The notes beneath the pieces were generated by a model, which worked only from the letters and a program-made list of their open reading frames with translations, was not told the origin of the DNA and did not search any database. The position numbers and the translations under genes are program-made. Of a stretch of DNA of 12,805 nucleotides, positions 4,836 through 7,613 are shown piece by piece (position 1 is the first letter of the stretch; each line of letters begins with the position of its first letter). Origin of the DNA: Candidatus Poribacteria bacterium (GTDB lineage Bacteria; Poribacteria; DTPJ01; WJIO01); NCBI GenBank assembly GCA_014730235.1, contig WJIO01000431.1:1-12805 (forward strand), in the 5' to 3' direction.

Positions 4836-5492
4836 ATGAAGAGTAATAGAAAATCCAATGATGGTAATCATGGTATTATCGTCGGACTAACAGGTGGGAT
4901 TGCATGCGGCAAAACAACTGTTTCGGAAATATTTAAAGAACTTGGTGCTGATATTATAAATGCTGACCTGATCGGTCATGAAGTATTAAAAGAAGATAAA
5001 TCAGTAAAAGATAGGCTAGTTGCAACATTTGGTCAGAATATCTTAGGGGAAAATAGGGAAATTAGCAGATACAAGCTGGGAAATATCGCCTTTGATAATA
5101 AATGCCATCTGGACAAAATAAATAAAATTGTTCATCCAGCAATAATCAGAAAAATACAAGAAAATATATCTCAAAAAACTTCCTCCATCCAGAATAATAT
5201 TTTAATAATAGAAGCTCCGCTGTTAATAGAAGTAAATCTAATAAATATGGTAGATGTGGTTGTTGTTGTTTATGCTGATGAGGATAAACAAATAAAACGT
5301 CTTAATGATAGAGGGCTTTCAGAAAATGAAGCTCTTAAGCGCATAAAATCCCAAATGCCAGTTAAAGATAAATTAAGATATGCCGATTTTGTTATTTATA
5401 ACAATGATTCAATAAGTAATACCAGAAAACGAGTTGTAGAAATTTGGGGGATATTGCAGGACAGTCTAAAAGGTAATCAAAAAAAGCCTTGA
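4836..5492 (+). CDS. coaE: Dephospho-CoA kinase
   Basis: CoaE phosphorylates the 3'-hydroxyl of dephospho-CoA with ATP, the last step of coenzyme A synthesis. The 218-aa protein is of normal length. It has a P-loop GLTGGIACGKTT at residues 17-28, an NADLIGHEV segment (42-50) in place of the usual DADxIAH, a lid region RLNDRGLSENEALKRIKSQ, and a C-terminal ADFVIYNND where the family usually reads AD-x-VIDN-x. These are conservative departures and the enzyme should be functional. The ATG at 4836 has only a weak ribosome binding site (GTGAGCG), but the in-frame codons just upstream are TTG followed by a TGA stop, so no earlier start is available. It lies 30 bp after polA, a common neighbour in Firmicutes, suggesting translation from the polA transcript. 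Its TGA stop lies inside the -35 box of the next promoter. Confidence 0.95.
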   Translation: MKSNRKSNDGNHGIIVGLTGGIACGKTTVSEIFKELGADIINADLIGHEVLKEDKSVKDRLVATFGQNILGENREISRYKLGNIAFDNKCHLDKINKIVHPAIIRKIQENISQKTSSIQNNILIIEAPLLIEVNLINMVDVVVVVYADEDKQIKRLNDRGLSENEALKRIKSQMPVKDKLRYADFVIYNNDSISNTRKRVVEIWGILQDSLKGNQKKP

Positions 5493-5517
5493 CGTTTCTT
5501 TTGTTGTGAATTATAAT
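5489..5517 (+). promoter_or_regulatory. Near-consensus sigma-70 promoter overlapping the coaE stop
   Basis: TTGACG (5489-5494) and TATAAT (5512-5517) are separated by exactly 17 bp, matching consensus at 11 of 12 positions. The expected start of transcription is about 5523-5525. The next protein-coding gene of any size, rho, is almost 800 bp downstream, so the promoter probably drives a non-coding RNA or a very long rho leader. Confidence 0.8.
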
Positions 5518-5870: not shown

Positions 5871-5898
5871 AGAATGACAGCTTTATATATGTCATTCT
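5871..5898. repeat. Inverted repeat AGAATGACA / TGTCATTCT
   Basis: Perfect 9-bp arms at 5871-5879 and 5890-5898 flank a 10-nt loop. The preceding bases CTTCGCTCC (5859-5867) make the left half resemble the widespread intergenic TCATTCTGAGCGAAGCGAAG type of repeat. The right arm is shared with the larger inverted pair that continues to 5962. Confidence 0.5.
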
Positions 5899-5962
5899 GC
5901 AAAGGCAGTATTTCTGTTTCTGAAAAGTTTTTTACTGGACTCCTGCCTTCGCAGGAATGACA
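5890..5962. repeat. REPIN-like pair of inverted TGTCATTC(C)TGC units
   Basis: TGTCATTC-TGCAAAGGCAG (5890-5908) and the reverse complement of 5943-5962 (TGTCATTCCTGCGAAGGCAG) are near-identical, differing by one indel and one base. About 34 nt separate them. The right-hand unit is itself a hairpin, TCCTGC-CTTC-GCAGGA (5941-5956). The unit is the same as that at 815-834. Confidence 0.55.
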
Positions 5963-6118
5963 TGTGAATTGATGCAGGAATGGTAGGTAGATTGATGTAG
6001 AGATAACAGGTAAACTATTGCAGTGATGATAAGCAAATTAAGTTTTCTTGTTTAATTTGTAATCTTTGTTCTTTAAGACATTTAATTCAGAAGAGCCGAA
6101 ACATTTGGTGTTTATTAG

Positions 6119-6200
6119 TTTAAAGTTAGTTCTTTGGTTAAAATAAAAACGGTCAGACCGTTTACAGAAAGGAAGTGGCGTTATGTATATTAACTTTAAA
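6119..6200 (+). promoter_or_regulatory. Structured part of the rho leader: 12-bp stem enclosing a palindrome and the upstream-ORF start
   Basis: TTTAAAGTTA (6119-6128) is perfectly complementary to TAACTTTAAA (6191-6200). In RNA the stem extends to 12 pairs (6119-6130 with 6189-6200) with one G-U. It would enclose the 17-nt palindrome at 6147-6163 and the ribosome binding site and ATG of the 24-codon upstream ORF. TAAAAT at 6139-6144 could instead be a -10 box, but no good -35 box is seen. Confidence 0.4.
6147..6163. promoter_or_regulatory. 17-nt perfect palindrome AAACGGTCAGACCGTTT, operator-like
   Basis: The arms AAACGGTC and GACCGTTT are perfect around a single central A. As DNA this is the size and style of a TetR-family operator. 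As RNA it would form a 6-bp hairpin with a UCAGA loop. No regulator gene lies nearby in the window. It is 20 bp upstream of the upstream ORF and about 140 bp upstream of rho. Confidence 0.4.
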
Positions 6201-6257
6201 GCCAGAATCTTTATTAAAGCGCCAAACCGAAGAATCGAGAGTTTTCAACATTACTAA
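6183..6257 (+). CDS. Candidate 24-aa upstream ORF (leader peptide) of rho
   Basis: The ORF begins MYINFKARIF and ends RIESFQHY: basic, 24 residues, not resembling a family I know. A plausible ribosome binding site (AAAGGAAG, 6168-6175) lies about 8 nt upstream of its ATG. The TAA stop (6255-6257) is 3 nt before the GGAGG of rho (6261-6265), so a terminating ribosome would cover or disturb the rho translation start region. The position suggests a regulatory upstream ORF controlling rho rather than a free-standing protein. An ORF this short can arise by chance, and only the ribosome binding site and placement support it. Confidence 0.4.
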   Translation: MYINFKARIFIKAPNRRIESFQHY

Positions 6258-6260
6258 CTT

Positions 6261-6299
6261 GGAGGGTGGCAAATCAATTAAATTTGCCACAAAAAGTAT
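6261..6299 (+). promoter_or_regulatory. Rho ribosome binding site with intervening hairpin
   Basis: GGAGG (6261-6265) is the only strong Shine-Dalgarno sequence before rho but lies 34 nt from the ATG at 6300, too far for normal use. Between them GTGGCAAAT (6266-6274) pairs perfectly with ATTTGCCAC (6282-6290) around a 7-nt loop, leaving only AAAAAGTAT (9 nt) between stem and ATG. Folding would bring the effective spacing to about 9 nt. A run of A rather than T follows the stem, so it is not a + strand intrinsic terminator. Confidence 0.6.
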
Positions 6300-7613
6300 A
6301 TGAGAGAAGGAACAGCACAACAACAATTGAAACCCAATGAACTAGACATTGGGGAACTGAAAAAAATGACAATTGCTGAGCTAAACAGCATTGCGCGTGA
6401 GCTTGGTATAACAGGTTACAGCAGTCTTAAGAAACATGATTTAATATTCAAAATTCTGGAAGCTAAGGCTACTGGTAACGGCCTGATATTTGGAGAAGGT
6501 GTACTTGATATAAGGCCCGAAGGTTTTGGTTTTTTGCGTTCACCTGCATATAATTATCTTCAGGGGCCTGATGATATTTATGTATCTCCATCCCAGATTC
6601 GCAAATTTAATCTTCGTGTGGGTCATGTGGTTTCGGGTCAAATCCGACCTCCCAAAAAAGGCGGCCCCGGAGAAAAAGAGGAACACTACTTCGCCCTTTT
6701 ACATATTGAAGCTGTTGATTATGAAAATCCCGAAAAGGCAAAGGAGAAAATCCTTTTTGACAATCTGACACCCATATATCCTATGGACAGGATCATCCTG
6801 GAGCATAATCCCAGAGAGCTTTCCACAAGGATAATGGACCTTATAACGCCTATCGGTAAAGGTCAACGTGGACTTGTTGTTGCTCCACCATACAGCGGAA
6901 AAACTGAACTTCTGAAAAGAATAGCCCGGGGAATAACTACAAATCATCCCGAAATGATTTTGATGGTTCTTCTTATTAATGAGCGTCCAGAGGAAGTTAC
7001 TGATGTAGAAAGATTCATCGGTTCCGATGGTGAAGTTGTCAGCGCAACATTTGATGAGCCACCAGAGCGTCATATCGAAGTATCTGATATGGTAATAGAA
7101 AAAGCCAAACGACTTGTGGAATATGGATATGACGTTGTTATCCTTCTGGACAGTATAACAAGGCTTGGTAGAGCCCATAACGCTGTTGCTCCTGCCAGCG
7201 GTAGAGTATTAACCGGTGGTGTTGAATCAACCGCCTTAACCCGCCCAAGAAGATTTTTTGGCGCAGCCAGAAATATAGAGGACGGGGGCAGTTTGACTAT
7301 TATAGCCACAGCCTTAATTGATACAGGCAGTAGAATGGATGACGTTATATTCGAGGAATTCAAAGGCACAGGTAATATGGAAGTACGCCTGGACCGCTCT
7401 CTGCTGGAAAGACGAATTTTCCCCACTATTGACATAAAGACATCAAAAACCCGTCGGGAAGATTTGCTTCTTAGTGAAGATGAGATGAATAAAATCTGGC
7501 TTCTCCGTAAAGCTTTGTCCCAGGAAAACCTGCCTGAAGCTATGGAATTCCTCCTGGAACATTTATCAAAAACAAAGACTAATGAGGAATTTTTAGAGTC
7601 TATGAAGGGTTAA
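6300..7613 (+). CDS. rho: Transcription termination factor Rho
   Basis: Rho is a hexameric RNA-dependent ATPase/helicase that ends transcription of untranslated RNA. The 437-aa protein has an N-terminal Rho_N helical domain (about 14-55), the cold-shock-like primary RNA-binding domain (about 65-140, GFGFLRS and [18 protein letters not shown]), and the RecA-type motor. Visible motor elements are Walker A APPYSGKT (K201), ERPEEVTD with catalytic E228, Walker [11 protein letters not shown] (D284), the Q-loop GRVLTGGV (301-308) and the R-loop KGTGN (355-359). Two positions differ from the E. coli enzyme: APPKAGKT is APPYSGKT here, and IDERPEE is INERPEE. The start at 6300 is chosen because the next in-frame ATG (6366) would remove the beginning of Rho_N; the codons upstream run back to TAA at 6279. 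Translation initiation appears structured. rpmE follows after 73 bp. Confidence 0.97.

Follow-up and report, generated by a model that had tools for sequence, protein, structure and literature searches.

A candidate hairpin-bridged ribosome-binding site upstream of rho in a poribacterial genome

The rho gene of a Candidatus Poribacteria bacterium is preceded by a Shine-Dalgarno (SD) motif that lies far from the start codon, and the intervening sequence contains a hairpin that would bring the two to a near-ideal distance when folded. Initiation of rho through such a hairpin-bridged, split ribosome-binding site, of the type found in genes 25 and 38 of phage T4, is in our judgement the best reading of this leader and a plausible one, although its probability falls somewhat short of even. 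It is favoured by the exact geometry, the stable stem, the free SD, the lack of a nearer SD, a rank above all other candidate starts sampled, a far TGGAGG in the leader of a relative, the T4 precedent and the accommodation of hairpins by ribosomes; it is disfavoured by the lack of the stem in that relative and at other rho loci, the lack of enrichment across the genome, the large proportion of genes without an SD, the abundance of hairpins and a start codon that is predicted to be largely paired. In the proposed mechanism, the 16S tail of the 30S subunit would pair with the distant GGAGG of the rho mRNA, the hairpin would remain folded and be accommodated on the subunit, and the effective distance from SD to AUG would contract from 34 to approximately 9 nt, allowing AUG 6300 to reach the P site. 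Three points are inferred for this purpose: the presence of the region in the transcript, persistence of the stem on the 30S subunit and use of the far SD.

Gene-finding programs assume a linear SD close to the start codon. Were the arrangement to be proven, phage-style split sites would occur in cellular genes, here in the gene governing transcription termination; were it not functional, it would show how often convincing arrangements arise where intergenic hairpins and SD-less genes abound. The fuller proposition, in which a cellular housekeeping gene of an uncultured phylum is translated via a site like that of T4 gene 25 and melting of the stem or protein binding would tune the amount of Rho, we regard as doubtful. 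The window throughout is the whole stretch of 12,805 nt that was analysed, which forms one contig of a Poribacteria MAG of 5.53 Mb; rho, its leader elements and the promoter-like sequence described below lie on the forward strand.

The rho gene and its start codon

The rho gene (6300..7613) encodes 437 amino acids from an ATG start (6300-6302), carries the Pfam domains Rho_N, Rho_RNA_bind and ATP-synt_ab, and has a conserved N-terminus. The nearest genome compared, Candidatus Poribacteria SpSt-970 (contig DTPJ01000768.1; L010/L039), belongs to the same order and another family; it shares this N-terminus at 83-84% identity, with MGDGTVQQIKANELNIDELKEM aligned to the first residues of the relative's protein, and over codons 1-22 the first, second and third codon positions carry 6, 2 and 10 changes. 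ATG 6300 is most probably the true start of rho, since the N-terminus is conserved as coding sequence in the relative and its substitutions are biased to the third position. Starts at TTG 6327 and ATG 6366 were rejected, as the relative conserves, as coding sequence, the upstream codons that either would drop. The view of the initial annotation that there is no better start than ATG 6300 is therefore borne out, with 6366 disfavoured by the conserved codons 1-22. A promoter-like sequence, TTGACG-17-TATAAT, matches the consensus at 11 of 12 positions at the end of coaE (5489..5517) and is a possible rho promoter on the strength of that match, in which case the 5' UTR would be very long.

Stop codons occur within the rho matches of two other poribacterial MAGs. 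One match (L021; G057:C418:1286-2551) contains a single in-frame TAA, which is either a sequencing error or a true interruption; the other (G078:C14:18677-19713) is split into overlapping pieces, of which one has three internal TGA codons, and this suggests frameshifts or a broken gene.

Anatomy and predicted folding of the leader

The distant SD-like GGAGG (6261..6265) stands 34 nt from the rho ATG in the unfolded transcript. On the base adjoining it begins a perfect stem of 9 bp, in which the 5' arm GTGGCAAAT (6266..6274) pairs with the 3' arm ATTTGCCAC (6282..6290) around a 7-nt loop, CAATTAA (6275..6281), and an A-rich tail of 9 nt, AAAAAGTAT (6291..6299), leads from the stem to the start codon. 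The folded hairpin thus leaves a spacing of 9 nt between GGAGG and ATG, and the geometry claimed at the outset (a GGAGG, a 9-bp stem on the next base and a 9-nt remainder) is exact in its coordinates.

Folding predictions give the stem an energy of -10.2 kcal/mol at 37 C with a mean pairing probability of 0.98, while GGAGG is predicted to be unpaired (0.98) and the rho AUG just ~38% unpaired at the same temperature. The fold of the 81-nt region was beaten by one of 200 dinucleotide shuffles (z -2.67), and Rfam covariance models found no match in the window at gathering score. Melting of the stem is predicted to be gradual, the paired form being favoured up to 60-65 C and the pair probability still 0.81 at 70 C. 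Hence nothing here points to a simple temperature switch, in contrast to the temperature sensitivity first proposed for rho translation.

A hairpin-bridged SD is a mechanism already known from phage T4, and the precedent of gene 25 holds on consulting the literature: the hairpin reduces the distance from SD to AUG from 27 to 11 nt in gene 25 and from 22 to 5 nt in gene 38, both split sites have been proven experimentally, and mutations that destabilize the stem lower initiation (PMC3014915). The rho leader shows several features of these sites, having an SD that is too far away when unfolded, a stable stem wholly between SD and AUG, a free SD, a folded spacing within the functional range and no competing SD. 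It resembles gene 25 (Nivinskas 1999; Malys and Nivinskas 2009, reviewed in PMC3014915) in that an over-long spacing is bridged by a stem (27 to 11 nt there, 34 to 9 nt here) and in that the arrangement is lineage-restricted, that of gene 25 being absent from distant relatives (PMC3014915). It differs in that reporters and DMS probing have proven the T4 site, whose conservation extends through the T-even phages, whereas the present case concerns a bacterial housekeeping gene, in one genome, read from sequence alone. Gene 38 is likewise an instance of spacing shortened by a hairpin, but it is a phage gene whose function was tested, and its unfolded spacing is shorter than the 34 nt of rho (PMC3014915). 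Ribosomes are reported to accommodate hairpins or push them aside without fully unfolding them (PMC3936740).

Comparison with relatives

In SpSt-970, the only same-order relative compared, the rho leader contains no stem, and the 9-nt tail is not recognisably conserved there. Its rho has GGAG ~9 nt before the homologous ATG, that is, at normal spacing, and also TGGAGG 28 nt before the same codon. That both same-order leaders have a far TGGAGG hints, weakly but genuinely, at a role for the far SD; this was noticed post hoc and in two genomes only. At other rho loci, numbering 73 with some entered twice (once per genome collection), a normally spaced SD was found at a candidate start in 57 and a bridging stem in none. 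The arrangement is real but unconserved in the sequences compared and, if functional, would be specific to its lineage and not a conserved control element of rho. The rho leader of a poribacterium further removed (L012) has a GTGGAA/TTCCAC hairpin ~27 nt before ATG 1504, upstream of an SD of the GGGGG type, possibly by chance.

The original proposal of functional bridging is partly supported: anatomy, start codon and the analogy with T4 hold, but conservation does not back the function. Relatives with a normal SD and no stem had been named as part of the evidence that would count against it, and the single relative from the same order, at order-level distance, is of this kind, although it too carries a far TGGAGG.

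The shared TGGAGG also admits a reading in which the far GGAGG is a standby site, where the 30S subunit docks before sliding past the hairpin or pushing it aside. Spacing would then not require the hairpin, which would be tolerated or inhibit mildly. A TGGAGG ~30 nt upstream in both same-order leaders, with a hairpin in only one of them, speaks for this reading, and sliding across structures at an energetic cost has been described (PMC3936740). Structured standby sites resemble the rho leader in that a hairpin near the initiation site is accommodated and not unfolded, but they place that hairpin upstream of the SD (PMC3936740) and not, as here, between SD and AUG; furthermore, they usually precede a working SD, of which there is none before the rho AUG, and the shared motif rests on two genomes. 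We therefore consider a standby site rather improbable.

Requirement for the distant SD and genome statistics

Whether bridging through the hairpin is needed depends on how genes of this organism usually initiate. Its anti-SD was taken from the canonical SDs of neighbouring genes (AAGGAGG before a degP-like gene and GGAGGT before polA), the 16S contig ending before the 3' tail. No SD match of at least 4 nt was found at normal spacing before ATG 6300, in agreement with the idea that the far GGAGG is the sole strong site. Yet ~42% of the organism's genes have no normally spaced SD of at least 4 nt, an approximate figure because gene calls were simple ORFs taken from the first possible start, and among genes with a single candidate start the count is 42 of 117. 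The need for a far SD is therefore weaker than was claimed; rho need not use the distant GGAGG, and initiation without an SD becomes a serious rival.

In that rival reading, rho starts at AUG 6300 by means of the unstructured A-rich tail and the start codon (and S1), while GGAGG and hairpin play no part, an intergenic palindrome of a common sort having fallen beside a GGAGG. Beyond the SD-less genes themselves, it draws on the lack of conservation of the rho stem and on the frequency of such palindromes: intergenic DNA of this genome holds 1.67 distinct perfect stems of at least 9 bp per kb, where a Markov model gives 0.06. From intergenic composition, the probability of a perfect stem of at least 9 bp within a 34-nt spacer is ~0.001. 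What the rival leaves unexplained is that GGAGG so far upstream (-45 to -21) is rare, occurring before 5 of 777 genes in this genome and 2 of 277 in the relative (0.6-0.7%), and is nevertheless common to both leaders, and that the stem directly adjoins the SD and leaves a near-ideal spacing.

We scanned 1.17 Mb of the genome (833 genes, 2,280 candidate starts) for split sites, defined as a far SD of at least 5 nt followed by a stem of at least 6 bp and a folded spacing of 3-14. There was no enrichment among the 2,280 candidate starts, with 7 observed and 6.35 expected, so the genome makes no systematic use of hairpin-bridged sites. The rho arrangement is the strongest in this sample, no other having a 9-bp stem; 0.1 with a stem of at least 9 bp would be expected by chance. 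Extrapolation to the whole genome gives about 0.5 equally good arrangements expected by chance, which also lends weight to SD-less initiation; the arrangement would thus be remarkable at a single chosen gene, though not as the outcome of scanning a genome. Set against the rarity and placement of the GGAGG, these figures make SD-less initiation a reading that we take seriously, while holding it to be somewhat less than an even prospect.

Leader open reading frames

Two short frames precede rho. An ORF of 24 codons (6183..6257) has AAGGAAG upstream of its ATG and a stop 3 nt before GGAGG, and an open frame of 42 codons (6175..6303) runs across the hairpin to a stop codon that overlaps the rho start as ATGA. 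Both are probably not coding. Their codon scores, -0.11 (6183-6257) and -0.01 (6175-6303), are intergenic in character and fall below the 5th percentile for pieces of real genes of 42 codons (0.109). A Pfam search of both gave no match, a comparison of the 6175-6303 frame with 19 relatives found no homologue, and that frame had a ~4% chance of being open. As genes, both were accordingly rejected.

Translation of either frame might deliver ribosomes to rho by coupling, and the initial annotation had listed a leader ribosome among the possible controls. The AAGGAAG upstream of ATG 6183 and the -4 overlap of the longer frame, typical of coupled genes, would suit such coupling, and in E. coli the rho gene is preceded by the leader rhoL (PMC9765468). 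The two systems are alike in having a leader upstream of rho, which in E. coli is associated with Rho autoregulation; unlike rhoL-rho, a coding leader is unsupported here, and neither codon scores nor homologue searches indicate a translated leader of the rhoL type. No counterpart was recognised in the SpSt-970 leader, and structure just past a stop correlates with weaker coupling (PMC12548453). Coupled initiation is accordingly very unlikely, and control by a leader ribosome finds no support, the frames looking non-coding by codon score; nor does control by Rho itself, likewise named at the outset.

Palindromes and repeats around the locus

The palindrome of the rho hairpin could instead serve as a DNA operator, or as some other nucleic-acid element with no part in initiation. 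In favour of this, its core TGGCAAAT-N-ATTTGCCA is present in four copies genome-wide and the reversed control in none, but the other copies form no regulon: one is within the CDS of an MnmA-like tRNA-thiolase, one at the convergent end of two genes and one intergenic, downstream of a glucan phosphorylase-like gene. The neighbouring palindrome at 6147-6163 has no other exact copy and shows no excess over control. Of the explanations considered, an operator seems to us the most improbable, and both a dispersed family or regulon of TGGCAAAT palindromes (four copies, no common context) and a regulon for the 6147-6163 palindrome (no excess over control) were rejected.

Upstream of the leader ORF, positions 6147-6163 form a perfect palindrome, AAACGGTC-A-GACCGTTT; a partly similar CGATCAGGCTG in the SpSt-970 leader aligns with it. 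Between coaE and rho, positions 5883-5970 hold a copy of a dispersed palindromic repeat of the TGTCATTCCTGC...GCAGGAATGACA type, which matches the genome at dozens of places. Two intergenic hairpins elsewhere (L106, 1073-1125; L105, 1499-1524) share an 11-bp arm, AATGGCAAATT / AATTTGCCATT, and possibly represent a small hairpin family.
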